64,000 nucleotides of DNA. Source: Sipunculus nudus. Taxonomy: Eukaryota; Annelida; Sipuncula; Golfingiida; Sipunculidae. The notes beneath the pieces are model-generated. The model was not told the DNA's origin and searched no databases. It saw nothing but the letters and a program-made list of their open reading frames with translations. A program made the translations under genes and the position numbers. This document shows positions 6,560-62,216 of this stretch, piece after piece. Within the stretch, counting starts at the first letter, position 1. The number at the start of each line of letters is the position of its first letter. The DNA is taken from positions 1,688,019 through 1,752,018 of the forward strand of contig CM049306.1 in NCBI GenBank assembly GCA_026874595.1, given 5' to 3'.

Positions 6560-7300
6560 TTACGATGCATGCTGATGGATCCTGTTTGTGTGAGTCAAGG
6601 AGATGCAATCCAACCGCCAGAGCAATGCCAGGCTTGAACCACTGAACCGCCTCTCAACCACAAGAGTTTTGTCTTGTGAGGGCCACAGAACCGCCACCGG
6701 TGACTGTCAATCAACCGCCGGAGCGATTGCTGGGACAACTGCCGCCCGCTGAACCGTCAGCGGTCTTGGCAAAGTAACCGTTACACCTCCGTTCGGGCTG
6801 AACTAAGAGGTTACAATAGAAAACCTGGTCAAAATATCGCTAAACTGGGACAGAACATCCGACAGTTGTTTTCATATCAAGAGGAATTTGCAGTGGAATT
6901 CTTCAAGTGTTCTTTAGAAGATTTGGACCTCAAGAAAGCGTTAGTTCAAGGTAAACCAAAGATACTGTATGAGGCAATGGATATTGTTGCCGAGTTGGAC
7001 TTTTGGGCGAATGTAAGAGCCTCACAAGAATAGAGGGATTCACTTTACGAATGAGAAGACCCTTCTGTGGGAAAACTTGCACAAAGAATTTATGGATAAT
7101 TTAACGGCGAGAAACAACCCCAAGGCACAAGAGACTGGACAGACTAAGAAAAATTAATTTTTTTCAAATCAAAGCAAAGTCACAAACAGCAGTTACGTTT
7201 TCAAGGTGGTTCCCCTGATCATTTTAAAACTGTCCGGATAAACCCAAGAATCAGTCTTTAAACGGGGATAGGCTGAGCCCATGGGCCAGGGGTCAGCTTA
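6560..7300 (+). pseudogene. Gypsy gag remnant
   Basis: A proline-rich leader with repeated AACCGCC words (6600-6770) precedes an open stretch at about 6776-7033. That stretch reads as the C-terminal part of a capsid: a PGQNIAKLGQNIRQLF-like helix, then EFAVEFF, and PKILYEAMDIVAELD. This matches the retrotransposon-gag pattern in which a helix ending in Fi-x-L is followed by P-x-TL-x-EA. It stops at a TAG (7031-7033). A damaged CCHC zinc-knuckle-like segment follows around 7190-7245, with frames broken. Gag packages the element RNA in known relatives; this copy cannot. Confidence 0.65.
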
Positions 7301-7476
7301 TGACATCGTAAAACTGATGATAGGTCTTCTTATCTGACTGCCTGCCGTCCTGGGACTAGGACAGAAGTGGAATTACTCATGAACCAAACGGGTTAAGTAA
7401 GGGAGCCTGAAAAGTATGACTCCAAGCAGGTCGAAGTGAGGGAGAAATCTCTACTAGTGCAAATGGCAAGGCCACA

Positions 7477-7725
7477 ATGATGGTGGTACCTGACGAAATA
7501 AAATCGTCTGGTCTGTATACGGAGGGGGGAGGTCCTTGGCCAAAAAATTGCATTGTGGTAGATACAGGCGCAGCTCAGTCATTTATCAGTAGTACAGTGT
7601 GGCAGAGGCTACCTTCAGTCCATAAGCCTGAAATTAACAGACCCGGTAAGGAGTTCCGTCTGGCAGAGGGAAGTAGCCTGAATGTTTTGATACATACAAG
7701 CCTGAAGATTGTATTGGGTGTTTAG
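7477..7725 (+). pseudogene. Gypsy aspartic protease domain (remnant)
   Basis: The 82-codon open stretch contains VDTGAAQSFIS, the retropepsin active-site signature, with the catalytic Asp at codon 29 (DNA 7561-7563) followed by the usual Ser/Ala-Phe-Ile segment. Retropepsins cut the Gag-Pol polyprotein. The Met at 7477 is simply the first after an upstream break; in related elements the domain is part of a longer polyprotein. It ends early at a TAG near 7725, and the flap region after GVLI-like residues is missing or out of frame. Confidence 0.8.
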
Positions 7726-7893
7726 CTCTATGTGCACAAGATTTGCATGCTGCAGAGTTAGACTTCAGGAACTTATCTTCATTCTGGGGAACACCGAACT
7801 AACGGCCCCTGTATAATTGGTGTTGAGAGGCAGACTCCACCAGAAAGCATGATTTAGAGCGACTCAAAGGCTCTCGCGAGTAAGGGAGTTGCT

Positions 7894-8172
7894 TTGGAGA
7901 GTTGTCTGGTGCGTACTGGCTCTGATGTTGTTCCAATTCGATTGTTGAACCCTACTTCCATCTTCCTCACGGTGTATAAAGATACAGCTATTGTGTTCTT
8001 TGCACCAGTATGTGTCCTTGAGGATAGCAATGTTGAACAACAGTGTCAGGAAGAGGGGCCTGGTATTCCTAATCAGCTCCAGGAGATTTATGCGGATGTT
8101 GAGCCAGGCCTAACCACAGAACAAAGGGAGGAGTTCAGAACCCTTGTGTCGGTTTTGCATGTATTTTCATAA
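7894..8172 (+). pseudogene. Gypsy pol spacer between protease and RT
   Basis: The open stretch contains VPIRLLNPTSIFLTVYKDT, which matches the short beta-rich linker domain often found between protease and reverse transcriptase in metazoan gypsy Pol (VPVR-x-N-P-x-x-x-V-x-L-y-k-g-T). An acidic segment ending in a REEF-like motif leads into RT. It ends at a TAA (8170-8172) just before the RT start. Function in relatives is structural; here it is a fragment. Confidence 0.6.
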
Positions 8173-8890
8173 ATCTATCAGGACATTGGAAGAACTGATC
8201 TTATAAAACACAACATCCCAACCAGTGACGCAACCCCGGTGAAACAACAGCCAAGAAGAGTCCATCTTAGTCAAAGAGAGGAGGTAGAGGCGCAGTTTGA
8301 CAAGATGCAAAAGCGAGGCATAATTGAACCATGCAGAAGTCCTTGGGCATCTCCGCTGGTCATTGTCAAAAAGAGAAATGGATTGTGTGGATTATCGAGC
8401 CTTGAATAACGTCACAGTTAAAGACGCCCATCCCCTGCCCTGTGTGGAGGACAATTAGGATTATTTGAATGGCTCACATTTGTTCTCGACATTTGACCTA
8501 ACGTCAGGATACTGGCAGGTAGAGGTAGAAGAGTGATCGCGATAAAATGGCATTCAGGACCCGAAGAAGTGGCCATTACAGGTTCGTTCCAATGCCGTTC
8601 GGACTTTGCAATGCCCCATCGACCTGTCAGAAATAGTGGAGAAGGTTCTGGCAGGTTTGCAGTGGCATATTGCTATTGTTTACTTAGATGATGTCATTGT
8701 GTACACCAAGTCTGTGGAAGAACATCTAAATCGGCTTTCTCTGGTATTGACACTGTTTGAGCAAGGAGGACTAAAGCTGAACACAATGAAATATAATCTG
8801 CTCCGAACAGAGGTCACTTTCCTGGGTCACACTGTTTCCGCTGATGGTATTGGAACAAATCTGGAATTAGTGAAAAGGTGACTGAATGGC
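8173..8890 (+). pseudogene. Gypsy reverse transcriptase domain (frameshifted)
   Basis: Classic RT blocks are visible in changing frames. They include the KRGIIEP helix and SPWASPLVIVKK (about 8310-8375), YRALN-like and HPLP words (about 8395-8435), a FSTFDLTSGYWQVEVEE segment (about 8480-8530), an MPFGLCNAPST-like block (about 8590-8620), and the catalytic YLDD at 8681-8692. The thumb-side FLGH and LGLAGYYEKFI motifs follow in the next frames. These are the hallmarks of Ty3/gypsy RT, which copies element RNA into DNA. Several frameshifts and stops inactivate it. Confidence 0.85.
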
Positions 8891-9360
8891 CACAACCTCA
8901 GAATCTGAGTGAAGTTCGAACATCCCTCGGACTGGCTGGATACTATGAGAAATTCATACCAATATATACTGAAATTGTGAGACCTTTGCAGCGCCTTTCA
9001 GAGAAAGAAAAAACATTCAAGTGGACTGACGAATGTGAAGCTTCAACGAAAATCTCAAACAAAGGTTAGTCAAAGCACCTATCCTGGCTTATCCAGATCA
9101 AGATTCACCGTTTATCCTAGACACTGACAGCAGTGCAAGTGCGATTGGTTGTGTGTTGTCGAAGATGGTTGATGGAGATGAAAGAGTCATTGCTTATGGG
9201 AGCCGGGCATTGCCAAAGGCAGAGCGGAATTACTGTGTTACAAGACCAGAGTTGTTGGCTGTCGTGACAACTTCGTTGACTACTACAGTTAATACCAATA
9301 CGGAAAGAAATTTATTGTGAGTACAGATCATGCTCCGCTGAATTTTTTTTTCAGATGAAG
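8878..9360 (+). pseudogene. Gypsy RT connection and RNase H domain (broken)
   Basis: The first part (to about 9069) carries the RT connection with LGLAGYYEKFI and a FKWTDECE motif. The RNase H begins near 9065, with LDTDSSASAIGCVLS (catalytic Asp region, about 9115-9165) and then VIAYGSRALPKAERNYCVT and a PELLAVV helix. In gypsy elements RNase H removes the RNA strand of the hybrid. The reading frame is lost after about 9290, and the final HAPLKW-like motif is damaged. Confidence 0.8.
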
Positions 9361-9777
9361 GAACCACAAGGTCATCCTGCTGATGTTCCAGAGGGGGTTC
9401 ATTTTGAAGTGCCTAATTTCATGACGTTTGCCTCAGATGAGGTATCAGATCCTGTACGCGCTCTTAATGATAGACCAGGTAAGGAGAACGAAGGACAGTT
9501 GGATATTTCACTCGACTCAAAGGATCTGTTGCAGTTCCAAAGGAGTGGTAAAGATATTGGCATTGTGTTAAGCCGGAAGGAGCAGAACCTCCCGCGACCG
9601 AAATGGGAGGAAGTGTCGCATCGTAGTCCCGATGTGAAGTTTTGGTTGGCTCGTTGGGACCAATTGGAGGTGAATGGCGGCTTAGTTTATATCAAATGGG
9701 AGCCTGAGAAGCCGGCAGAGAAAGTTCGACTAAGACTGCTGACGCCAATGTCACTGAGGGAAGAAGCCCTGAAATGA
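9355..9777 (+). pseudogene. Gypsy RNase H-integrase linker (remnant)
   Basis: A 140-codon open stretch links RNase H to integrase. It begins with KEPQGHPADVPEG-like residues, the stretch that follows RNase H in related elements. It then runs through a poorly conserved charged linker with KFWLARWDQLEVNGGLVY, which fits the region just before the integrase zinc-binding domain. It ends with SLREEALK and a TGA directly before the HHCC module. It is the longest open stretch of the element body. Confidence 0.65.
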
Positions 9778-10735
9778 TGTCACGAATCGAAAATGGCGGG
9801 CCACCTTGGTGTTCACAAAACACGGTCGCTGGTCAGGCGGTCTCAATTATACTGATTATACTGGCCAGGTTTGAGGAAGGACACAGTAGGATAGGTAACG
9901 CGATTAGAGATGTGCTTGCTGAGGAAACCGGCAGCGTTTTCTAAGAGGGCAAAATGATCAGCTACTGAGTTGGTGCTCCCTTCGAAAGACTGGCTCTTGA
10001 TATTGCGGGACCTTTCTAAGTTACCAAACAAGGGAGTCAATATTTGCTGGTAGTACAGGCCTATTTTACGAAATGGGCAGAATGTTTCGCTCTTCCGAAC
10101 CAGCAAGCGAACAAAATTGTTGCTAGATTTGGGGTACCTATGGAACTTCATTCTGACCAAGGCTCCAGTTTTGAGGTATTCCGGGAAATGTGCCGACTAC
10201 TCGGTAAATGGAAACACGCACAACCACATATCATCCTAGATCTGATGGCATGGTAGAACGTTTGAACTGCACCATAGACGCTATGTTGAGTGCATGGGTA
10301 TCAATCAAACAGACAAGATGACTGGGATGAACTATATATGAGTTTACTCATGACAACATATCGGTCCACTGAACACGAAACAACTCATTAAACGCCCAAA
10401 ATAACGTCGCTTGGGAGGGATATTGCACTTCTGGTAGATCTGTGGCTCTGTCCACTGTCTGAAGAGGTAGCAGATAATCTGAATCCCTCCGATTACGCAC
10501 AAGATCTGCAAGTAAGGCTGCGCCTAAGCAATGACATAGCTAGAGAGGCGATACAGAGGGAAATATCGACTCAGAAGAGACATTATGATAGAAATGTACA
10601 TCCCTGCATGTACACAGTCGGTGATGTAATATAGCTACACGTAACAGCGCGAAGGAAAGGGGTCTCACCCAAGCTATCTCTTTTCTGGAAAGGACCGTTC
10701 GTGGTGCTGGAGACTAGAAAACTGACGGGTCAGTA
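9770..10735 (+). pseudogene. Gypsy integrase, N-terminal and core part
   Basis: The HHCC zinc-binding module begins with HESKMAGHLGVHKT (about 9780-9825), followed by a YWPGLRKD segment and damaged Cys positions. The catalytic core shows FERLALDIAGPF (about 9975-10015), YLLVVQAYFTKWAE (about 10040-10080) and RFGVPMELHSDQGSSFE (about 10125-10175), so two acidic residues of the D,D-35-E triad are visible; a DGMVERLN word at about 10240-10265 marks the third region. The frame breaks many times afterwards. Near 10725 the C-terminal beta-barrel region (KLTG) is cut by the family B element and resumes at about 12383. Confidence 0.85.
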
Positions 10736-28282: not shown

Positions 28283-29250
28283 AGCAAGGATTACACCAGC
28301 AACATACACCCACCTACTCCAAGTAGTCTGTACTAGATACACACTAAGGACTGTACCAGCAAGATACTCAGTCAGGACTCTACCAGCAACACAGTCAGTC
28401 AGGATTTTACCAGCAACATACTCGGTTAACAATGTACCAGCAACATACTCAGTCAGGACTGTATCAGGAACATAGTCACAACTGTACCAGCAACATAGCC
28501 AGTACTGTTCCAGCAACACATTAAGTCAGGACTGTACCAGCAAATACTCAGTGAATACTGTACCAGCAAGATATCCAGTAAGGACTGTACAAGCAACACA
28601 GTTAGTCAGGACTGTACCAGCAACATAGCCAGTACTTTTCCAGCAACACATTAAGTCAGGACTGTACCAGCAAATACTCAGTGAATTCTGTACCAGCAAG
28701 ATATCCAGTAAGGATTGTACAAGCAACACAGTCAGGACTGTACCAGCAACATACTAAGTCAAGACTGTACCAGCAACATACCCAGTCAGGAGTGCACCAG
28801 CAACATGCTAAGTCAGGACTGTACCAGCAACATGCTAAGTCAAGACTGTACCAGCATCATACTCAGTCAAGACTGTACCAGCAACATAGCCAGTACTGTT
28901 CCAGCAACACATTAAGTCAGGACTGTACCAGCAACATGCTAAGTCAGGACTGTACCAGCAACATGCTAAGTCAGGACTGTATCAGCAACAAACTCAGTCA
29001 AGACTGTGCCAGCAACATACCCAGTCAGGAGTGCACCAGCAACATGCTAAGTCAGGACTGTACCAGCAACACATTAAGTCAGGACTGTACCAGCAACATG
29101 CTCAGTCAGGACTGTACCAGCAACACAGTTAGTCAGGACTGTACCAGCAACATACTTAGTCAAGACTGCACCAGCAACATACCCAGTCAGGAGTGCACCA
29201 GCAACATGCTAAGTCAGGACTGTACCAGCAACATGCTCAGTGAGGAATTT
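28283..29250 (+). repeat. 27-bp minisatellite (about 35 units)
   Basis: The unit GTCAGGACTGTACCAGCAAC plus a 7-nt variable end (ATGCTAA, ATACTCA or ACATTAA) recurs mostly every 27 bp. Larger repeats of about 132 bp are visible (CATAGCCAGTACT at 28493, 28625 and about 28885). Because 27 is nine codons and the unit lacks a stop in one frame, a 254-codon open frame (28681-29445) results. Its codons carry no sign of selection visible here, so it is not called a gene. Confidence 0.9.
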
Positions 29251-30160
29251 ACAATCAAAGATATAGGATTTGTTTTTCTTGTTGACACTCCATTAATCTG
29301 TTGTCAGATTCATTTGCTGGGGGTACCAGTGATCTGTCAGTTGTTGTCAGCTTCATTAACTGGCATTACACACTGTTATAGGTGTGCATCCCCAACAGAA
29401 CTTGTTTTATCAGAGAAACCTTGGAACATGCATCTGGAAACCTGATACAGAAAATGTCATGCTTGTAGGAGTATGCTGGCCTGTTAACACTGAATAATAA
29501 TCCACATGATTTCTTTATGACAAACAAAATAAGATAGGCTACATTCTAAATCATGGCCAACAAAATTAACTGTATTAATTTATGATTTATAACCATCTAA
29601 ATTACTTGCACCACACTATGAGTCATGGTAAAGATTCCAGTTGACAGTTATAATTATAAACTGATAATCCAAACCAAAACACATGAAGAACGGCAAAGGA
29701 GCTTGAAACCAAATAACCAAACTTGACTATTCTTCTTGCTGAACCTACACACCCCATTCTCACAATCAAATTATGTCACTTACATCAGTGTATATGTACA
29801 ATGAACAAGCCTTCCAGTTTATGAATATATTATACATGCTTTATCTACATGGTAATGTACAGTGGTATCCACAAGATACATTTGTGCATCTCTCTCCAAC
29901 AGGGCTTTGTGACTCACATTTGCCCTAATGCATAAATATTTTCACATACACACACACATACACTCATCCATACAATGTAACACCTGCAGAGCGCTGAGCC
30001 ACCCCTCACGAGCACCTCGCTGCTGCTGGCATTTAACAGTGTCCTCCTGCCATCAATTATGATAATCACTTTATATTATATATATATATAAAAAAAATAA
30101 TAATACCACATCTGCAAAAGGCATGAGGAGCTAATAATATTACATATATATGAAATAAAC
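29251..30160. other. Non-coding stretch between two arrays
   Basis: Nothing coding was recognised. There is a CACATACACACACACATACAC microsatellite near 29945 and a TA run near 30072-30090. Confidence 0.5.
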
Positions 30161-36116: not shown

Positions 36117-36160
36117 TTGGAACGTCTTCTTCTGCCAGTCTCTTTCTTGTCTGATCGCCG
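36117..36160 (-). CDS. Unidentified host gene, penultimate coding exon (44 bp)
   Basis: Acceptor GACTTGCAG ends at 36161 and donor GTGAGT begins at 36116 (minus strand). One base completes the AG carried from the exon at 39094, giving Ser. Then GDQTRKRLAEEDVP is read, and one base is left for the next exon. The piece is charged and basic-acidic, typical of a flexible C-terminal segment with a possible RKR basic motif. Phase agreement on both sides is the main support. Domain and function unknown. Confidence 0.7.
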
Positions 36161-37530: not shown

Positions 37531-37735
37531 GGCCAACTCTGCTATTTTTTTTATCTATTTAATTTCTCCTATCACCAACCTGCTATAAATATTGTATGCA
37601 CCCTGAAATATTTTTCCCCTGAAATTTTCTGCTGCCCTGCAATATTTAATGCCCGCTCACTTTTCATCCCACAAAATGGGCCGACCATGACCGGACCTGG
37701 ATATAGGTCGCTCTAACCTGTATAAAAGGCATTCT

Positions 37736-38840
37736 GGTTCTCACATCATTGTAGTGTTATGTATGAGAGTTGTGCTGGTTCCCACATCAGTGTAGTGTTA
37801 TGTATGAGAGTTGTGCTGGTTCCCACATCAGTGTAGTGTTATGTATGAGAGTTGTGCTGGTTCCCACATCATTGTAGTGTTATGTATGAGAGGTGTGCTG
37901 GTTCCCACATCAGTGTAGTGTTATGTATGAGAGTTGTGCTGGTTCCCACATCAGTGTAGTGTTATGTTTGAGAGTTGTGCTGGTTCCCACATCATTGTAG
38001 TGTTATGTATGAGAGGTGTGCTGGTTCCCACATCAGTGTAGTGTTATGTATGAGAGTTGTGCTGGTTCCCACATCATTGTAGTGTTATGTATGAGAGGTG
38101 TGCTGGTTCCCACATCAGTGTAGTGTTATGTATGCGCGGTGTGCTGGTTCCCACATCAGTGTAGTGTTATGTATGAGAGGTGTGCTGGTTCCCACATCAG
38201 TGTAGTGTTATGTATGAGAGTTGTGCTGGTTTCCACATCATTGTAGTGTTATATATGAGAGGTGTGCTGGTTCATACATCACTGTAGTGTTATGTATGAG
38301 AGGTGTGCTGGTTCCCACATCATTGTTGTGTTATGTATGAGAGGTGTGCTGGTTCCCACATCAGTGTAGTGTTATGTATGAGAGGTGTGCTGGTTCCCAC
38401 ATCAGTGTAGTGTTATGTATGAGAATTGTGCTGGTTCCCACATCAGTGTAGTGTTATGTATGAGAGGTGTGCTGGTTCCCACATCAGTGTAGTGTTATGT
38501 ATGAGAGGTGTGCTGGTTCCCACATCATTGTTGTGTTATGTATGAGAGTTGTGCTGGTTCCCACATCATTGTAGTGTTATGTATGAGAGGTGTGCTGGTT
38601 CCCACATCAGTGTAGTGTTATGTATGAGAGTTGTGCTGGTTCCCACATCAGTGTAGTGTTATGTATGAGAGTTGTGCTGGTTCCCACATCAGTGTAGTGT
38701 TATGTATGAGAGTTGTGCTGGTTCCCTCATCAGTGTAGTGTTATGTATGAGAGTTGTGCTGGTTCCCACATCAGTGTAGTGTTATGTATGAGAGTTGTGC
38801 TGGTTCCCACATCAGTGTAGTGTTATGTATGAGAAGTGTG
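37736..38840 (+). repeat. 41-bp tandem array (about 27 units)
   Basis: The unit holds CACATCAGTGTAGTGTTATG and TATGAGAGTTGTGCTGGTTC in a strict 41-bp register (for example CACATCA at 37742, 37783 and 37824). Variants GTTGTG/GGTGTG and CAGTG/CATTG are interspersed, as expected after unequal exchange. Intronic in the minus-strand gene. Confidence 0.95.
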
Positions 38841-38912: not shown

Positions 38913-39078
38913 GATTTTCAGACTTCAGATGGCCTAGTGCTGTGAGTGACTGTGATTTTCAGACTTCAGATGGCCTAGTGCTGTGAGTGACTGTGATTTT
39001 CAGACTTCAGATGGCCTAGTGCTGTGAGTGACTGTGATTTTCAGACTTCAGATGGCCTAGTGCTGTGAGTGACTGTGA
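38913..39078 (+). repeat. Second 41-bp array, four units, next to an exon
   Basis: GATTTTCAGACTTCAGATGG recurs at 38913 and 38954 and twice more, near-identical, period 41. It ends about 15 bp from the donor of the exon at 39094. Its sequence is not obviously related to the neighbouring 41-bp array. Confidence 0.95.
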
Positions 39079-39093
39079 AAGGGCTGAATTTAC

Positions 39094-39235
39094 CTTGTAT
39101 ACAGAGGGTGAGTCTTGAGGTCTCTCTGCATCTGCTTGACCTCATCCCTGTAAAGGTCAAGGTCTTCTGCTGAGCAAGGGGGCAACACATTGGGGATATA
39201 CTTGGCAAACAACTGTGGTCGAAGCTGTGCAAATT
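39094..39235 (-). CDS. Unidentified host gene, internal coding exon (142 bp)
   Basis: The acceptor (ATTTCCAG) ends at 39236 and the donor GTAAAT begins at 39093 on the minus strand. The first two bases complete a Glu codon begun in the exon at 48368. Then 46 codons are open: FAQLRPQLFAKYIPNVLPP, then CSAEDLDLYRDEVKQMQRDL and KTHPLYT. AG is left for the next exon. Codon use is natural and GC is higher than the surrounding intron. The composition suggests an alpha-helical protein (hydrophobic and charged residues alternating after SAEDL). It was not matched to a named family. Confidence 0.8.
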
Positions 39236-39682: not shown

Positions 39683-42600
39683 ATCCAACAGGACATATAA
39701 AACCTACTAGGTCTGAGAGAGTGTAAACTGCAGATAATGCAGGCCATCATAGGACATGTTGAACTTACCAGGTTTGAGAGAGTGTAAGCTGCTGATAATA
39801 CAAGCCATCATGGGACATGTAGAACGTACCAGGTTTGAGAGAGTGTAAGCTGCTGATAATACAAGCCATCATGGGACATGTAAAACTTACCAGGTTTGAG
39901 AGAGTGTAAGCTGCTGATAATACAAGCCATCATAGGACATGTAGAACTTACCAGGTTTGAGAGAGTGTAAGCTGCTGATAATACAGGCCATCATGGGACA
40001 TGTAGAACTTACCAGGTTTGAGAGAGTGTAAGCTGCTGATAATACAAGCCATCATAGGACATGTAGAACTTACCATATTTGAGAGAGTGTAAGCTGCTGA
40101 TAATACAAGCCATCATAGGACATGTAGAACTTACCAGGTTTGAGAGAGTGTAAGCTGCTGACAATACAGGCCATCATGGGACATGTAGAACTTACCAGGT
40201 TTGAGAGAGTGTAAGCTGCTGATAATACAAACCATCATGAGACATGTAGAACTTACCAGGTTTGAGAATGTGTATGCTGCTGATAATATAATCCATCATA
40301 GGACATGTAGAACTTACCAGGTTTGAGAGAGTGTAAGCTGCTGATAATACAAGCCATCACAGGACATGTAGAACTTACCAGGTTTGAGAGAGTGTAAGCT
40401 GCTGATAATACAAGCCATCATGGGACATGTAGAACTTGCCAGGTTTGAGAGAGTGTAAGCTGCTGATAATACAAGCCATCATAGGACATGTAGAACTTAC
40501 CAGGTTTGAGAGAGTGTAAGCTGCTGATAATACAAGCCATCATAGGACATGTAGAACTTACCAGGTTTGAGAGAGTGTAAACTGCTGATAATACAAGCCA
40601 TCATGGGACATGTAGAACTTACCAGGTTTGAGAGAGTGTAAGCTGCTGATAATACAAGCCATCATGGGACATATAGAACTTACCAGGTTTGAGAGAGTGT
40701 AAACTGCTGATAATACAAGCCATCATAGGACATGTAGAACTTACCAGGTTTGAGAGAGTGTAAGCTGCTGATAATACAAGCCATCATAGGACATGTAGAA
40801 CTTACCAGGTTTGAGAGAGTGTAAGCTGCTGATAATACAAGCCATCATAGGACATGTAGAACTTACCAGGTTTGAGAGAGTGTAAGCTGCTGATAATACA
40901 AGCCATCATAGGACATGTAGAACTTACCAGGTTTGAGAGAGTGTAAGCTGCTGATAATACAAGCCATCAAGGGACATGTAGAACTTACCAGGTTTGAGAA
41001 TGTGTAAGCTGCTGATAATACAAGCCATCATGGGACATGTAGAACTTACCAGGTTTGAGAATGTGTAAGCTGCTGATAATACAAGCCATCATAGGACATG
41101 TAGAACTTACCAGGTTTGAGAGAGTGTAAGCTGCTGATAAAACAAGCCATCATGGGACATGTAGAACTTACCAGGTTTGAGAGAGTGTAAGCTGCTGATA
41201 ATACAAGCCATCATAGGACATGTAGAACTTACCAGGTTTGAGAGAGTGTAAGCTGCTGATAATACAAGCCATCATAGGACATGTAGAACTTACCAGGTTT
41301 GAGAGAGTGTAAGCTGCTGATAATACAAGCCATCATAGGACATGTAGAACTTACCAGGTTTGAGAGAGTGTAAGCTGCTGATAATACAAGCCATCATGGG
41401 ACATGTAGAACTTACCAGGTTTGGGAGAGTGTAAGTTGCTGATAATACAAGCCATCATAGGACATGTAGAACTTACCAGGTTTGAGAGAGTGTAAGCTGC
41501 TGATAATACAAGCCATCATGGGACATGTAGAACTTACCAGGTTTGAGAGAGTGTAAGCTGCTGATAATACAAGCCATCATAGGACATGTAGAACTTACCA
41601 GGTTTGAGAGAGTGTAAGCTGCTGATAATACAAGCCATCATGGGACATGTAGAACTTACCAGGTTTGGGAGAGTGTAAGTTGCTGATAATACAAGCCATC
41701 ATAGGACATGTAGAACTTACCAGGTTTGAGAGAGTGTAAGCTGCTGATAATACAAGCCATCATGGGACATGTAGAACTTTCCAGGTTTGAGAGAGTGTAA
41801 GCTGCTGATAATACAAGCCATCATGGGACATGTAGAACTTACCAGGTTTGAGAGAGTGTAAGCTGCTGATAATACAAGCCATCATAGGACATGTAGAACT
41901 TACCAGGTTTGAGAGAGTGTAAGCTGCTGATAATACAAGCCATCATAGGACATGTAGAACTTACCAGGTTTGAGAGAGTGTAAGCTGCTGATAATACAAG
42001 CCATCATGGGACATGTAGAACTTACCAGGTTTGAGAGAGTGTAAGCTGCTGATAATACAAGCCATCATGGGACATGTAGAACTTACCAGGTTTGAGAGAG
42101 TGTAAGCTGCTGATAATACAAGCCATCATGGGACATGTAGAACTTACCAGGTTTGAGAATGTGTAAGCTGCTGATAATACAAGCCATCATAGGACATGTA
42201 TAACTTACCAGGTTTGAGAGAGTGTAAGCTGCTGATAAAACAAGCCATCATGGGACATGTAGAACTTACCAGGTTTGAGAGAGTGTAAGCTGCTGATAAT
42301 ACAAGCCATCATAGAACATGTAGAACTTACCAGGTTTGAGAGAGTGTAAGCTGCTGATAATACAAGCCATCATAGGACATGTAGAACTTACCAGGTTTGA
42401 GAGAGTGTAAGCTGCTGATAATACAAGCAATCATAGGACATGTAGAACTTACCAGGTTTGAGAGAGTGTAAGCTGCTGATAATACAAGCCATCATGGGAC
42501 ATGTAGAACTTACCAGGTTTGAGAGAGTGTAAGCTGCTGATAATACAAGCCATGATGGGACATGTAGAACTTACCAGGTTTGAGAGAGTGTAAGCTGCTG

Positions 42601-45600
42601 ATAATACAAGCCATCATAGGACATGTAGAACTTACCAGGTTTGAGAGAGTGTAAGCTGCTGATAATACAAGCCATCATGGGACATGTAGAACTTACCAGG
42701 TTTGAGAGAGTGTAAGCTGCTGATAATACAAGCCATCATGGGACATGTAGAACTTACCAGGTTTGAGAATGTGTAAGCTGCTGATAATACAAGCCATCAT
42801 AGGACATGTATAACTTACCAGGTTTGAGAGAGTGTAAGCTGCTGATAAAACAAGCCATCATGGGACATGTAGAACTTACCAGGTTTGAGAGAGTGTAAGC
42901 TGCTGATAATACAAGCCATCATAGGACATGTAGAACTTACCAGGTTTGAGAGAGTGTAAGCTGCTGATAATACAAGCCATCATGGGACATGTAGAACTTA
43001 CCAGGTTTGAGAGAGTGTAAGCTGCTGATAATACAAGCCATCATGGGACATGTAGAACTTACCAGGTTTGAGAATGTGTAAGCTGCTGATAATACAAGCC
43101 ATCATAGGACATGTATAACTTACCAGGTTTGAGAGAGTGTAAGCTGCTGATAAAACAAGCCATCATGGGACATGTAGAACTTACCAGGTTTGAGAGAGTG
43201 TAAGCTGCTGATAATACAAGCCATCATAGAACATGTAGAACTTACCAGGTTTGAGAGAGTGTAAGCTGCTGATAATACAAGCCATCACAGGACATGTAGA
43301 ACTTACCAGGTTTGAGAGAGTGTAAGCTGCTGATAATACAAGCCATCATGGGACATGTAGAACTTGCCAGGTTTGAGAGAGTGTAAGCTGCTGATAATAC
43401 AAGCCATCATAGGACATGTAGAACTTACCAGGTTTGAGAGAGTGTAAGCTGCTGATAATACAAGCCATCATAGGACATGTAGAACTTACCAGGTTTGAGA
43501 GAGTGTAAACTGCTGATAATACAAGCCATCATGGGACATGTAGAACTTACCAGGTTTGAGAGAGTGTAAGCTGCTGATAATACAAGCCATCATGGGACAT
43601 ATAGAACTTACCAGGTTTGAGAGAGTGTAAACTGCTGATAATACAAGCCATCATAGGACATGTAGAACTTACCAGGTTTGAGAGAGTGTAAGCTGCTGAT
43701 AATACAAGCCATCATAGGACATGTAGAACTTACCAGGTTTGAGAGAGTGTAAGCTGCTGATAATACAAGCCATCATAGGACATGTAGAACTTACCAGGTT
43801 TGAGAGAGTGTAAGCTGCTGATAATACAAGCCATCATAGGACATGTAGAACTTACCAGGTTTGAGAGAGTGTAAGCTGCTGATAATACAAGCCATCAAGG
43901 GACATGTAGAACTTACCAGGTTTGAGAATGTGTAAGCTGCTGATAATACAAGCCATCATGGGACATGTAGAACTTACCAGGTTTGAGAATGTGTAAGCTG
44001 CTGATAATACAAGCCATCATAGGACATGTAGAACTTACCAGGTTTGAGAGAGTGTAAGCTGCTGATAAAACAAGCCATCATGGGACATGTAGAACTTACC
44101 AGGTTTGAGAGAGTGTAAGCTGCTGATAATACAAGCCATCATAGGACATGTAGAACTTACCAGGTTTGAGAGAGTGTAAGCTGCTGATAATACAAGCCAT
44201 CATAGGACATGTAGAACTTACCAGGTTTGAGAGAGTGTAAGCTGCTGATAATACAAGCCATCATAGGACATGTAGAACTTACCAGGTTTGAGAGAGTGTA
44301 AGCTGCTGATAATACAAGCCATCATGGGACATGTAGAACTTACCAGGTTTGGGAGAGTGTAAGTTGCTGATAATACAAGCCATCATAGGACATGTAGAAC
44401 TTACCAGGTTTGAGAGAGTGTAAGCTGCTGATAATACAAGCCATCATGGGACATGTAGAACTTACCAGGTTTGAGAGAGTGTAAGCTGCTGATAATACAA
44501 GCCATCATAGGACATGTAGAACTTACCAGGTTTGAGAGAGTGTAAGCTGCTGATAATACAAGCCATCATGGGACATGTAGAACTTACCAGGTTTGGGAGA
44601 GTGTAAGTTGCTGATAATACAAGCCATCATAGGACATGTAGAACTTACCAGGTTTGAGAGAGTGTAAGCTGCTGATAATACAAGCCATCATGGGACATGT
44701 AGAACTTTCCAGGTTTGAGAGAGTGTAAGCTGCTGATAATACAAGCCATCATGGGACATGTAGAACTTACCAGGTTTGAGAGAGTGTAAGCTGCTGATAA
44801 TACAAGCCATCATAGGACATGTAGAACTTACCAGGTTTGAGAGAGTGTAAGCTGCTGATAATACAAGCCATCATAGGACATGTAGAACTTACCAGGTTTG
44901 AGAGAGTGTAAGCTGCTGATAATACAAGCCATCATGGGACATGTAGAACTTACCAGGTTTGAGAGAGTGTAAGCTGCTGATAATACAAGCCATCATGGGA
45001 CATGTAGAACTTACCAGGTTTGAGAGAGTGTAAGCTGCTGATAATACAAGCCATCATGGGACATGTAGAACTTACCAGGTTTGAGAATGTGTAAGCTGCT
45101 GATAATACAAGCCATCATAGGACATGTATAACTTACCAGGTTTGAGAGAGTGTAAGCTGCTGATAAAACAAGCCATCATGGGACATGTAGAACTTACCAG
45201 GTTTGAGAGAGTGTAAGCTGCTGATAATACAAGCCATCATAGAACATGTAGAACTTACCAGGTTTGAGAGAGTGTAAGCTGCTGATAATACAAGCCATCA
45301 TAGGACATGTAGAACTTACCAGGTTTGAGAGAGTGTAAGCTGCTGATAATACAAGCAATCATAGGACATGTAGAACTTACCAGGTTTGAGAGAGTGTAAG
45401 CTGCTGATAATACAAGCCATCATGGGACATGTAGAACTTACCAGGTTTGAGAGAGTGTAAGCTGCTGATAATACAAGCCATGATGGGACATGTAGAACTT
45501 ACCAGGTTTGAGAGAGTGTAAGCTGCTGATAATACAAGCCATCATAGGACATGTAGAACTTACCAGGTTTGAGAGAGTGTAAGCTGCTGATAATACAAGC

Positions 45601-48367
45601 CATCATGGGACATGTAGAACTTACCAGGTTTGAGAGAGTGTAAGCTGCTGATAATACAAGCCATCATGGGACATGTAGAACTTACCAGGTTTGAGAATGT
45701 GTAAGCTGCTGATAATACAAGCCATCATAGGACATGTATAACTTACCAGGTTTGAGAGAGTGTAAGCTGCTGATAAAACAAGCCATCATGGGACATGTAG
45801 AACTTACCAGGTTTGAGAGAGTGTAAGCTGCTGATAATACAAGCCATCATAGAACATGTAGAACTTACCAGGTTTGAGAGAGTGTAAGCTGCTGATAATA
45901 CAAGCCATCATAGGACATGTAGAACTTACCAGGTTTGAGAGAGTGTAAGCTGCTGATAATACAAGCAATCATAGGACATGTAGAACTTACCAGGTTTGAG
46001 AGAGTGTAAGCTGCTGATAATACAAGCCATCATGGGACACGTAGAACTTACCAGGTTTGAGAGAGTGTAAGCTGCTGATAATACAAGCCATCATGGGACA
46101 TGTAGAACTTACCAGGTTTGAGAGAGTGTAAGCTGCTGATAATACAAGCCATCATAGGACATGTAGAACTTACCAGATTTGAGAGAGTGTAAGCTGCTGA
46201 TATAACAAGCCATCATGGGACATGTAGAACTTACCAGGTTTGAGAGAGTGTAAGCTGCTGATAATACAAGCCATCATAGGACATGTAGAACTTACCAGGT
46301 TTGAGAGAGTGTAAGCTGCTGATAATACAAGCCATCATAGGACATGTAGAACTTACCAGGTTTGAGAGAGTGTAAGCTGCTGATAATACAAGCCATCATG
46401 GGACATGTAGAACTTACCAGGTTTGAGAGAGTGTAAACTGCTGATAATACAAGCCATCATGGGACATGTAGAACTTACCAGGTTTGAGAGAGTGTAAGCT
46501 GCTGATAATACAAGCCATCATGGGACATGTAGAACTTACCAGGTTTGAGAGAGTGTAAGCTGCTGATAATACAAGCCATCATGGGACATGTAGAACTTAC
46601 CAGGTTTGAGAGAGTGTAAGCTGCTGATAATACAAGCCATCATGGGACATGTAGAACTTACCAGGTTTGAGAGAGTGTAAGCTGCTGATAATACAAGCCA
46701 TCATAGGACATGTAGAACTTACCAGGTTTGAGAGAGTGTAAGCTGCTGATAATACAAGCCATCATGGGACATGTAGAACTTACCAGGTTTGAGAGAGTGT
46801 AAGCTGCTGATAATACAAGCCATCATGGGACATGTAGAACTTACCAGGTTTGAGAATGTGTAAGCTGCTGATAATACAAGCCATCATAGGACATGTATAA
46901 CTTACCAGGTTTGAGAGAGTGTAAGCTGCTGATAAAACAAGCCATCATGGGACATGTAGAACTTACCAGGTTTGAGAGAGTGTAAGCTGCTGATAATACA
47001 AGCCATCATAGAACATGTAGAACTTACCAGGTTTGAGAGAGTGTAAGCTGCTGATAATACAAGCCATCATAGGACATGTAGAACTTACCAGGTTTGAGAG
47101 AGTGTAAGCTGCTGATAATACAAGCAATCATAGGACATGTAGAACTTACCAGGTTTGAGAGAGTGTAAGCTGCTGATAATACAAGCCATCATGGGACATG
47201 TAGAACTTACCAGGTTTGAGAGAGTGTAAGCTGCTGATAATACAAGCCATCATGGGACATGTAGAACTTACCAGGTTTGAGAGAGTGTAAGCTGCTGATA
47301 ATACAAGCCATCATAGGACATGTAGAACTTACCAGATTTGAGAGAGTGTAAGCTGCTGATATAACAAGCCATCATGGGACATGTAGAACTTACCAGGTTT
47401 GAGAGAGTGTAAGCTGCTGATAATACAAGCCATCATAGGACATGTAGAACTTACCAGGTTTGAGAGAGTGTAAGCTGCTGATAATACAAGCCATCATAGG
47501 ACATGTAGAACTTACCAGGTTTGAGAGAGTGTAAGCTGCTGATAATACAAGCCATCATGGGACATGTAGAACTTACCAGGTTTGAGAGAGTGTAAACTGC
47601 TGATAATACAAGCCATCATGGGACATGTAGAACTTACCAGGTTTGAGAGAGTGTAAGCTGCTGATAATACAAGCCATCATGGGACATGTAGAACTTACCA
47701 GGTTTGAGAGAGTGTAAGCTGCTGATAATACAAGCCATCATAGGACATGTAGAACTTACCAGGTTTGAGAGAGTGTAAGCTGCTGATAATAGAAGCCATC
47801 ATAGGACATGTAGAACTTACCAGGTTTGAGAGAGTGTAAGCTGCTGATAATACAAGCCATCATGGGACATGTAGAACTTACCAGGTTTGAGAGAGTGTAA
47901 GCTGCTGATAAGACAAGCCATCATGGGACATGTAGAACTTACCAGGTTTGAGAATGTGTAAGCTGCTGATAAGACAAGCCATCATAGGACATGTAGAACT
48001 TACCAGGTTTGAGAGAGTGTAAGCTGCTGATAAAACAAGCCATCATAGGACATGTAGAACTTACCAGGTTTGAGAGAGTGTAAGCTGCTGATAAAACAAG
48101 CCATCATGGGACATGTAGAACTTACCAGGTTTTAGAGAGTGTAAGCTGCTGATAAAACAAGCCATCATGGGACATGTAGAACTTACCAGGTTTGAGAGAG
48201 TGTAAGCTGCTGATAATACAAGCCATCATAGGACATGTAGAACTTACCAGGTTTGAGAGTGTAAGCTGCTGATAATACAAGCCATCATAGGACATGTAGA
48301 ACTTACCAGGTTTGAGAGAGTGTAAGCTGCTGATAATGCAGGCCATCATGGGACATGTAGAACTTAC
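39683..48367 (-). repeat. 61-bp satellite built from an exon end plus its splice donor (about 140 copies)
   Basis: The period is 61 bp almost throughout. Read on the minus strand, each unit is 40 bp matching the last 40 bp of the exon at 48368-48457 (ATGGCTTGTATTATCAGCAG to CTCTCTCAAACCTG), then the donor GTAAGT and the rest of a 21-bp intron piece (to ATGTCC-ATG). The array fills the intron between exons 48368-48457 and 39094-39235. Units differ by point variants (TAGGAC/TGGGAC; GAATGTG; ATAAAACAAG; AGAACATG; AAGCAATC). Shared variant strings show that long blocks were duplicated. Units at the 39.7-kb edge are the most diverged. It is not a CRISPR array: there are no unique spacers. Confidence 0.97.
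40300..45830 (-). repeat. Higher-order duplication in the satellite, offset 2,928 bp (48 units)
   Basis: Rare variants recur at exactly 2,928 bp. CATCACAGG is at 40355 and 43283, CATCAAGGG at 40965 and 43893, CATCATAGAAC at 42307 and 45235, CAAGCAATC at 42424 and 45352, and CATGATGG at 42551 and 45479. 2,928 is 48 times 61. The match fails before about 40300 and beyond about 42,900 (partner 45,830). Further offsets of 610 bp (10 units, 45235 to 45845) and 1,159 bp (19 units, 45845 to 47004) are seen for the AGAAC variant. Confidence 0.9.
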
Positions 48368-48457
48368 CAGGTTTGAGAGAGTGTAAGCTGCTGATAATAC
48401 AAGCCATTGTAGCCGGCGGCACAGAGAATGGCTTAGTATTGGCATCTACAAGTAACG
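48368..48457 (-). CDS. Unidentified host gene, upstream-most exon in the window
   Basis: The acceptor (GATTTTTCAG) ends at 48458 and the donor GTAAGT begins at 48367 on the minus strand. After two bases closing a split codon, 29 codons are open: LLVDANTKPFSVPPATMACI, then ISSLHSLKP, with one base left over. It joins in phase to 39094-39235. Upstream exons were not found up to the window edge; they may lie in or beyond the repeats to the right. The last 40 bp of this exon and its donor are the parent of the 61-bp satellite. Reading through the first donor would meet a TAA at the second donor, about 22 codons on. Protein family not recognised. Confidence 0.8.
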
Positions 48458-56804: not shown

Positions 56805-58062
56805 CAAGAATACGGGCAGTCGACAAGCGACTACATGTATCCGCCTAAATCAGAGTGGAACGGGTGAAGTGAGGCATGGATTGAGTGGCAAGGGGAAATA
56901 GAGTGTTGCATATTAGCATGGATGTCTGCAGCCAAATTGAGTCTGTAGGTTGCCCCCCCACCACAAAATCCAGAAAGCCGTCCAAGTTGTATACATATGC
57001 AAAATTTAAGGTCTGCTGCATAAACTAGATTGCAGGTGGCGCCACCTGTCATAAAATCAAGAGAGCTGTCGGGGATGTATAAACCTGCAAAATTTTAGGC
57101 AGATATGTCAAACCACTGCCGAGATATGAGTGATTTTATCCCATGGCAGACAAACAGACAGGAGCTGTGCAAAAATGGCTGCAGGTGGCGCCACCAGTTT
57201 TGCGTATGATGAAGAGCTATGTGAGATCTATACACATGCAAAATTTTGGCCCAATCGGTCAAACGGTTCCCGAGATATGAGCTTGGATGTCTGCAGCGTA
57301 AACGTGAATGTAGGTGGCGCCACCTGTCATAAAATCAGAAAAGCTATCTAGGATGTATACGCATGCCGAATTTCAGGTGAATTAGTCAAGTCACTGCAGA
57401 GATATGAGTGATTTTAACCCAAGGCAGACGAACAGATGGACACTGTACAAACATGGCTGCAGGTGGCGCCGCCATTTTTTGTGTATGTTATAAAGCTCTC
57501 CAAGGGCTACATTTGTGCAAAAAAATGTTCCTGATCGGTCAAACAGTTCCCGAGATATGAGCTTGGATGTCTGCAGCGTAAACATGAATGTAGGTGGCGC
57601 CACCTGTCATAAAATCAGAAAAGCTATCCAGGGTGTTTACGCATGCCGAATTTCAGGTGAATTAGTCCAGTCACTGCAGAGATATGAGTGATTTTAACCC
57701 AAGGCAGACGAACAGATGGACACTGTGCAAACATGGTTGCAGGTGGCGCCACCATTTTTTGTGTATGTTATAAAGCTCTCCAAGGGCTACATTTGTGCAA
57801 AAAAATTTTCCTGATCGGTCAAACGGTTCCCGAGATATGTGGGTTTATGTGTGGAAACAGGCGCACAAACGGACGCAGAGCGCAGAGGAAAGGTCAGAGG
57901 TCAAAACAAAATTGGGGTGCAGCAGTTCACATGTGACCCGAACATAATCCAGGGTTTCGTAAAATTCCCTCCAGCGCTTACTGAGGAGTTCTCCGGACAC
58001 CTACGCGGCGGCGGCGTGCAGCTGAAAACATAGTATCCACAAAACTGTTTTGGCGGATACAA
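56805..58062 (+). mobile_element. Family G element inserted in A9
   Basis: A4 gives the uninterrupted site: AAAAGAAAA followed directly by TAACGCCACAACATG near 25877-25895. Here the same flanks are split by 1,258 bp. Inside are tandem units of 280 bp (GCTTGGATGTCTGCAGCGTA at 57281 and 57561), each with the palindrome GGTGGCGCCACC, and a GTATCCGCC near the left end against GGCGGATAC at the right. The right end folds into a hairpin (GTATCC-AAAA / TTTT-GGATAC). Microsatellite-poor; no protein. A degenerate relative is at 15226-16100. Confidence 0.8.
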
Positions 58063-60056: not shown

Positions 60057-62216
60057 TAGTTCCTTCATATTTACTTAATACTTAAAAAAGGACAGACAGA
60101 CTAGTAGACAAACAAAACTGATAATATATGAAGTTTCAATTTTTTCTTAATTTATTTATTATATCAAATTTTTTTAAAGTTTAACATCTGCAATAATACA
60201 AAACTGAATATATAATTTGCTTTCAAATTTCAGACTTAAATAGCTTAATTACAAACACATACAGCACATGAAAGTTATTTCAACAGTGCTTATAGGAAAA
60301 ATTTCATAATTTATATATATTTAATGTTAACCGAGAGATGATGGACAGAGCTGATCACTATGTTCCATTCTCCTAAGGCAAGAATATGTTTCAATGAGAT
60401 CTTAATTTTTTCTAATCCTATTTTTTTTTATGAAATAAATTTTCATATTTGCAATAAAAACTAATGCCCCAGTGCATAGCAATCAATGGCAGCCGGGGGG
60501 GGGGGGGGGGGGGGGTGAGAGATGGTGGGATTAACAACACTTCTGCATATACATACAGGGCAAACAAAGTCTGATCTCAAATTCTGCTGAGGCAGGAAAA
60601 TAATGAACAAATGTTTGTATTAGATCCTCATTTTTTTATGAAATCAATTTTATTACAAGTTTATATTTCTATACATTTCCAATAAAACATATATATCTGA
60701 ATATAAACATTGATTCATAATTCTAAATTGCATCATCATAAATCTCAATCTTGTCAGACAACACCACATCATGCATACAAATGTTAATTTATTTTTGTGG
60801 TTAAAAATAAATTTGCAAAACAACAAATATGAGATGGTGGGATTAACAACACTTCTGCATATACATACAGGGCAAACAAAGTCTGATCTCCAATTCTGCT
60901 AAGGCAGGAAAATAATGAACAAATGTTTGTATTAGATCCTCATTTTTTTATGAAATCAATTTTATTACAAGTTTATATTTCTATACATTTCCAATAAAAC
61001 ATATATATCTGAATATAAACATTGATTCATAATTCTAAATTGCATCATCATAAATCTCAATCTTGTCAGACAACACCACATCATGCATACAAATGTTAGT
61101 TTATTTTTGTGGTTAAAAATAAATTTGCAGAACAACAAATATCTAAAAATAATACTTGAATTAGATTTCACAATTTTAAATTTTACCTTTATTTGCTACA
61201 TATTTTATAAATTAAAACATAATGATGGGTTTTATTATATTTGTTCAAATCATTTAAAAGAAACACAACATGGCATCTTCTGTATAACACCCTGAATTAC
61301 TTTTTCAAGGAAAGTTTTTGTATATTGGAGTGGAAACCACATTACACTTAAGGAGATACAGTGAAAACAATAATGTTCAATATCTGTATAACACTTGGTG
61401 GGTTGGATTTGGCAGGAGGGGGGGGGGGGGGATCAGGGTGGTGATATGAGAATAACTGTACATCTGTCACTGGACCAAGCAAATGACTACAATAGAGCCT
61501 CAAGAAAAAAAATAAAAAACTTGCATAATTTTCTTTTTTTTTTTTTAAATTTCAGATTTAAACAAATTAAATACTTATGTTTACATGCTGTGAAAATTAA
61601 ATCAATAGTACTTACAGGAAAAAAATGTGCCATAGTCAGAGATGGGCAAAATTTAAGGTACTGATTTTATTTTTATGCTTTTAACTTAAAAAATTTACAA
61701 AATTCAGATCTTATTTTGGGTACACAATTGAATCTTAATTAAACAAAGTTATTTACTTGGGAAAATAGTCTCTAGTTTCAAAATTGTTCATTTTAAGTGA
61801 GTATATATTTTTCCTGATTTTTTGAAAGTCCATTATATTCGGGCTCGTAACTTAAAGAAATTATACTTAACTGACTTTATTTCTGGCATGTATATAGGAA
61901 ATATATAGGAGATTACTTCTGGTAAATATTAAGAAAAACTGATAAGTGGTTTTGATATTAGGCAGTCCTGAATTGTGATAATAGGTTTTTAATGGAAATT
62001 TGAGGTTTTTCCTAAATATCTTGAAGGAAGGAAGTCATACTGACCCAATTGTCGGTATGGTAGGAGATTTTGGGGATATCTAATAGTATGCCGAAATTTG
62101 GATTCATAGGTCTAACAGTTTAAAAACATGCCAGTCTAACAGACGGACAGACTGACAGACAGACGGACAACAGACCACGACTATAGCTCTGATGACTTAC
62201 AGTCACCTGAGCTAAT
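60057..62216 (+). repeat. Family A-related block ending in copy A10
   Basis: A right end with (ACGG/ACAG)n at about 62139-62168, CTATAGCTCTG and CACCTGAGCTAATAA closes at 62216. One internal unit (61620-62110) has GGCAAAATTTAAGG and GATATTAGGCAGTC. No clear start motif was found. G runs lie at 60495-60515 (21 nt) and 61418-61431 (14 nt). The segment near 61245-61290 is the uninterrupted equivalent of the A7 insertion site. Confidence 0.65.
60519..61140 (+). repeat. Recent 312-bp tandem duplication
   Basis: The sequence from 60519 (GAGATGGTGGGATTAACAAC) recurs from 60831 with only a few changes over about 310 bp. It must be one of the youngest changes in the window. Confidence 0.9.

Follow-up and report, generated by a model that had tools for sequence, protein, structure and literature searches.

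A minisatellite of 143 units repeats a predicted exon end and its 5′ splice site within an intron of Sipunculus nudus

How is one 5′ splice site chosen when the intron that follows it repeats that site, together with the end of the exon, more than a hundred times? This question is raised by a window of 64 000 nucleotides from the Sipunculus nudus genome (assembly GCA_026874595.1, contig CM049306.1, positions 1 688 019 to 1 752 018; all coordinates below are those of the window), the minus strand of which carries a minisatellite at 39689–48407 that we parsed into 143 head-to-tail units of 61 bp. Tandem Repeats Finder placed the array at 39690–48407 (period 61, 143.0 copies, 96% matches, score 16155), in agreement with an earlier sequence-only reading of this DNA, which had noticed about 140 tandem copies of an exon end with its 5′ splice site. 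In our parse 141 units had exactly 61 bp, with one internal unit (48285–48227) and the terminal unit having 59 bp each. Every unit consists of the last 40 bp of a predicted exon, here called exon A (48457–48368), followed by the first 21 bp of the intron. The sequence-only reading had thus been right about the 40 bp of exon end, but it had counted the GTAAGT donor in addition to the 21 bp of intron, which in fact include it, and it had regarded the exon as the last unit, while the end of exon A is the first unit of the array in transcription order. This coincidence of repeat unit and exon end is far beyond chance.

The copies have remained very similar to the exon end, as was found with the alignment of all units that had been proposed together with the sequence-only reading. 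Over all 61 bases, 38 of the 143 units were identical to the exon unit (itself counted), and the first 57 bases agreed with it in 82 of the 141 full-length units, the two 59-bp units being left out. The majority consensus differed from the exon unit at intron position +18 only, where T was found in 72 units, C in 70 and a gap in one. With the real donor counted in, GTAAGT was intact in 137 units, GT in 139 and CTGGTAAGT in 136 of the 143. Elsewhere on the window's minus strand GTAAGT occurred 17 times, as compared to 137 times within the 8.7 kb of the array. The consensus border reads CTG/GTAAGT (the slash marking the border) and thereby lacks the acceptor AG joined to a donor GT that would make a recursive splice site; AGGT was seen in a single unit, the diverged terminal one at 39689–39747, with the donor CTA/GTAGGT. 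In four units (at 41431, 41675, 44359 and 44603) a base change was also seen to create GTAAGT on the plus strand.

Exon A itself was predicted as a 90-nt exon at 48368–48457 on the minus strand, with the acceptor TTTTTCAG and the donor CTG/GTAAGT, its last 40 nt being the exon part of unit 1 and the putative authentic 5′ splice site lying at 48362–48367. Beyond the array follow exon B (142 nt, 39094–39235, acceptor TTTCCAG, donor AAG/GTAAAT) and a predicted exon C (44 nt, 36117–36160, acceptor CTTGCAG, donor GTGAGT), both on the minus strand, the latter proposed from its canonical borders. Exon A was open in one of its three frames only, and this frame enters exon B in its conserved frame, with the reading continuing open from A through B to C. 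Exon B is conserved, as seen from matches to three metagenomic open reading frames (ORFs) with E values of 2.8e-14, 6.6e-13 and 5.3e-12, the only matches found at E up to 10 with four candidates. The best local alignments showed 62–76% identity, and aligning exon B with all three ORFs gave 31 invariant columns out of 48. The first pairwise alignment starts one residue before exon B, and the other two extend 7 and 13 residues back into the part encoded by exon A, with little identity and in one case a 5-residue gap, which we take as chance. THP are the last residues in all three alignments, and each ORF reaches its stop four residues later, at about the end of exon B, so that the ORFs presumably represent exon B read into the flanking intron. 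We infer that exon A is an exon from its splice signals and its frame, which fit the first unit as a coding exon border, and from the conservation of exon B; for exon A itself, our searches found no relatives.

If the first unit holds the authentic donor, what sets it apart from the others? For those donors that were computed, duplex formation with U1 gave −9.1 kcal/mol for the real donor and equally so for units 2 and 3, with −5.3 kcal/mol for the terminal unit, −6.8 kcal/mol for the donor of exon B and −7.6 kcal/mol for that of exon C. The claim of well above 100 donors, each on a par with the real one, over about 8.7 kb was thus borne out by the GTAAGT counts and, for units 2 and 3, by the U1 energies. 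With equal pairing of these three donors, position rather than local sequence must pick the donor. An RNA hairpin masking donors was considered and rejected, because although the exon end can pair with GUAAG, the three stretches that were folded were no more stable than their shuffles (z of 0.00, 0.66 and −0.88, with 90, 148 and 34 of 200 shuffles being as stable).

The consequences of choosing another donor were, on the other hand, uniform. Assuming exon B as the splice partner, every one of the 142 unit borders after the first (four of which lack GT) was predicted to give a premature stop when joined to exons B and C, at codon 51 in 141 cases and at codon 50 in one, with numbering from the first complete codon of exon A. 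The normal protein therefore requires the first donor, and it is probably only this donor that makes a normal mRNA. For the same reason the suggestion of a tunable set of donors yielding alternative proteins could not be upheld.

We consider that the locus is best explained as an intronic minisatellite that arose by tandem duplication across the 3′ border of exon A and grew by exchange and block duplication, with its first donor probably being the one used, and we would put the probability of this reading at roughly 0.7. The order of events that we infer would have begun with tandem duplication of a stretch over that border, comprising 40 bp of exon and 21 bp of intron, whereupon the array would have expanded through unequal exchange and duplication of blocks. 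The exon end would have stayed fixed because it is coding, or alternatively because the exon served as the source, whereas the other copies would have drifted as ordinary non-coding DNA. The ancestral border would thereby have been split between opposite ends of the array, and a most diverged far-end unit that runs into unique intron, as found here (9 substitutions and a 2-base gap relative to the exon unit), is what such a split is expected to give. The first donor would probably be used since it is reached before any other from the 5′ side and forms a pair with the real acceptor, 90 nt upstream of it, be it by 5′-to-3′ scanning or by exon definition, while the remaining donors would be skipped, or be used occasionally to give transcripts with a premature stop. 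As examined with regard to intron gain in this one genome, the presence of intron bases in the unit and the transition of its far end into unique intron before exon B suggest that the intron is older than the array, rather than having arisen anew between copies. Origin by tandem duplication across the exon–intron border, as first proposed in the sequence-only reading, appears to be the better reading of this genome.

Some observations weigh against this explanation. The real donor and most of the decoys share their surroundings, which gives no local preference for the first, and in IFI6 downstream repeat donors can be used, according to the sections available of PMC4526556. The fit of the frame from A to C offers modest support, with two of the three frames being open in exon B and every frame in exon C. 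As no relative of exon A was found, its prediction may be wrong, and that copying went from the exon into the array is presumed. Finally, in a phase-blind exon scan, to be taken as a guide only since its codon table and splice-site weights were approximate, a form of exon A ending at the unit 2 donor (48307) outscored the 90-nt form.

Could the array instead have come first, with the coding end of exon A being a derived copy recruited from a satellite unit by exonisation? That no relative of exon A was found speaks for this, as it leaves an older, array-free exon end without support. However, the exon unit matches the consensus over all 40 coding bases despite its position at an edge, where other units diverge, and its open frame continues into the conserved exon B, and we regard exonisation as very improbable. 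The pattern of variation along the array was the usual one for such a repeat, with a homogenised centre and diverged edges. There were 33 distinct unit haplotypes, and the 16 of 143 units having a haplotype found only once (units 2, 3, 5, 8, 9, 11, 39, 134–137 and 139–143) were nearly all at the edges.

Within the centre, units 43–84 (45847–43286) recurred base for base as units 91–132 (42919–40358), a block of 42 units found again 48 units (2928 bp) further on. At this lag the fraction of identical units was 0.547, the highest value among lags 1–99, compared to a median of 0.155. Such an exact recurrence can be either a real duplication or an effect of assembly. It also bears upon the concern that the length of the array is an assembly product, or exon A a false prediction, making the link to splicing fortuitous: the repetition of 42 units without one difference, and the failure to find a relative of exon A, speak for it. 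On the other side, both acceptor and donor fit, the sole open frame of exon A continues as the conserved open frame of exon B, and the identity between the unit and the end of the exon holds for any number of copies, for which reasons we find this explanation improbable.

Had the many donors been maintained for a function, they might be expected to have changed less than the rest of the unit. Counting distinct variants per site, we found 0.67 for the donor hexamer, 0.62 for the exon part and 0.87 for the remaining intron part. With raw counts the donor 9-mer appeared conserved, only 5 of 61 circular windows (itself included) being as low, but block duplication influences such counts, and with distinct variants the 9-mer was ordinary, 36 of 61 windows being equal or lower. 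Selection on the donors, as it might have been read from the raw counts, is therefore not claimed, and by distinct variants no excess conservation of donor bases over the rest of the unit was found in the 143 units. Among the exon copies, 23 of 34 haplotype–codon differences altered the amino acid (leaving out the 59-bp unit 3). Given these rates and replacements the copies look like drifting non-coding DNA, with neither upkeep nor removal of decoys visible, although the test is weak due to the small number of independent changes.

Three explanations would give the decoys a role, and it should be noted that all of the alternatives discussed here overlap with each other and with the preferred reading, so that their odds need not sum to one. 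According to one of these, part of the transcripts would use downstream donors and acquire a premature stop, with copy number setting the output of the gene. The stop after every later border and the equal U1 pairing of units 2 and 3 agree with such poison splicing, as do the correlation between F7 repeat number and mRNA level mentioned in the part available of a review (PMC3492156) and the employment of downstream donors in IFI6 (PMC4526556, likewise seen in part). Since the donors showed no sign of selective upkeep, and because a unit length that is not a multiple of 3 would shift the frame without any selection, we nevertheless hold it to be unlikely. A related proposal, which we find rather less probable still, is a splicing rheostat controlled by copy number, where over 130 donors that equal the real one would compete for the same acceptor and the decoys would give unproductive transcripts; if true, a hypermutable repeat length would set gene dose. 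Lastly, the array may be a binding platform on which more than 130 strong sites recruit the U1 small nuclear ribonucleoprotein (snRNP), which would either guard a long intron against premature polyadenylation or titrate U1. The density of GTAAGT in the array relative to the remaining minus strand is compatible with this, and neither AATAAA nor ATTAAA occurs within the array. That absence, however, follows from the unit sequence alone, the donors lacked excess conservation by distinct variants, and an snRNP this abundant would hardly be titrated by a single locus; a platform of this kind consequently seems highly improbable to us.

We finally compared the array with known systems, where the repeats in intron 7 of F7, the human gene for coagulation factor VII, are of particular relevance. 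The F7 repeat units, as those found here, also include exon bases. As far as described in the portion available of PMC6627357, these are highly homologous 37-bp tandem repeats each holding a 5′ splice site, with the authentic site in the first repeat, and normally only this most upstream site is used, which was explained by oriented scanning. In having donors like the authentic one in nearly all units, the present array resembles a minisatellite of that type, and neither 37 nor 61 bp is divisible by 3. The two differ in size, F7 having four to seven repeats of 37 bp (PMC3492156, as available) against 143 units of 61 bp with a block-duplicated interior here, and in that exclusive use of the first donor was reported for F7, whereas the present array is known from DNA. 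IFI6 (also called G1P3 or 6-16) likewise has repeat units with donors at an exon end, but in the part available of PMC4526556 two downstream units are used as donors, giving three mRNA species that encode isoforms, whereas no productive mRNA is predicted from any downstream border of the present array. Because the normal protein needs the first donor, we consider the mode of F7 more likely here than that of IFI6. Minisatellites at exon–intron boundaries that can alter splicing have furthermore been found in human segmental duplications (PMC2812944, seen in part), with boundary repeats averaging four units of 30 bp and exonic repeats of the morpheus family reaching 39 copies; the boundary repeats were there tied to new introns, in contrast to the seemingly older intron studied here. 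The sequence-only reading had known of no standard class for the locus, but F7 and IFI6 are published precedents, and the array looks like an extreme example of a published type of repeat, in which it is the copy number that stands out. That number is far above those of the exon–intron border repeats compared here (four to seven in F7 and an average of four in the accessible part of PMC2812944), and no longer array at such a border was found in the literature searched, a scope outside of which most subscription papers fell.

The identity of the gene was also sought. No family was found in Pfam, NCBIfam or PDB for exons A–C or for the relatives of exon B, the best values (0.062, 0.16 and 0.058) not being convincing, and Rfam gave zero matches at the gathering threshold. 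Among viral_contigs, none of 32 pattern matches was confirmed as a relative of exon B, and for exon C no relatives were found. Symplekin, considered as a candidate, was rejected as the exon peptides had no match in PDB at E values up to 10, while a stretch of human symplekin matched another, different symplekin in PDB, 4imi_A, which we take to be that of the fly, at 2e-23. In a direct alignment with symplekin, 34 of 2000 shuffles attained the same score in local mode and 182 of 2000 with free ends.

Several other repeats were seen in the window. The next intron holds two minisatellites with 41-bp units, one at 37734–38834 (26.9 copies, 95%) and one at 38913–39078 (4.0 perfect copies), the latter beginning about 15 bp into its intron. 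Neither resembled exon B, with 479 and 442 out of 500 shuffles scoring as well, and in comparisons with exons A and C this was the case for 106, 104, 49 and 10 of 200 shuffles, the lowest count being that of the array at 38913–39078 with exon C. Upstream of exon A lie tandem units of 280 bp (57011–57839, 3.0 copies, 86%) and of 312 bp (60519–61142, 2.0 copies, 98%). On the plus strand, a 27-bp repeat at 28347–29246 (34.1 copies, 78% matches) overlaps an open frame of 279 codons (28606–29445), which had a weak Pfam match to DUF4298 that fell under the cut-off of that family, and a reverse transcriptase fragment was found at 8546–8878 (Pfam RVT_1, 2.4e-09), beside which the plus-strand ORFs at about 6900–10200 appeared retrotransposon-like by eye. 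Together with the abundance of repeats and the length of the introns, this fragment gave the general impression of animal DNA.

How one donor is chosen among equals is an old question, which has usually been studied using engineered constructs that offer two sites or a few more. Here a natural intron presents 137 identical donor hexamers in near-identical surroundings of 61 bp, where a wrong choice would be recognisable by the length of the product as well as by its premature stop. RNA reads from this gene could thus show directly whether position alone decides which donor is used, and the array furthermore shows how far a repeat of this kind can grow inside a gene.

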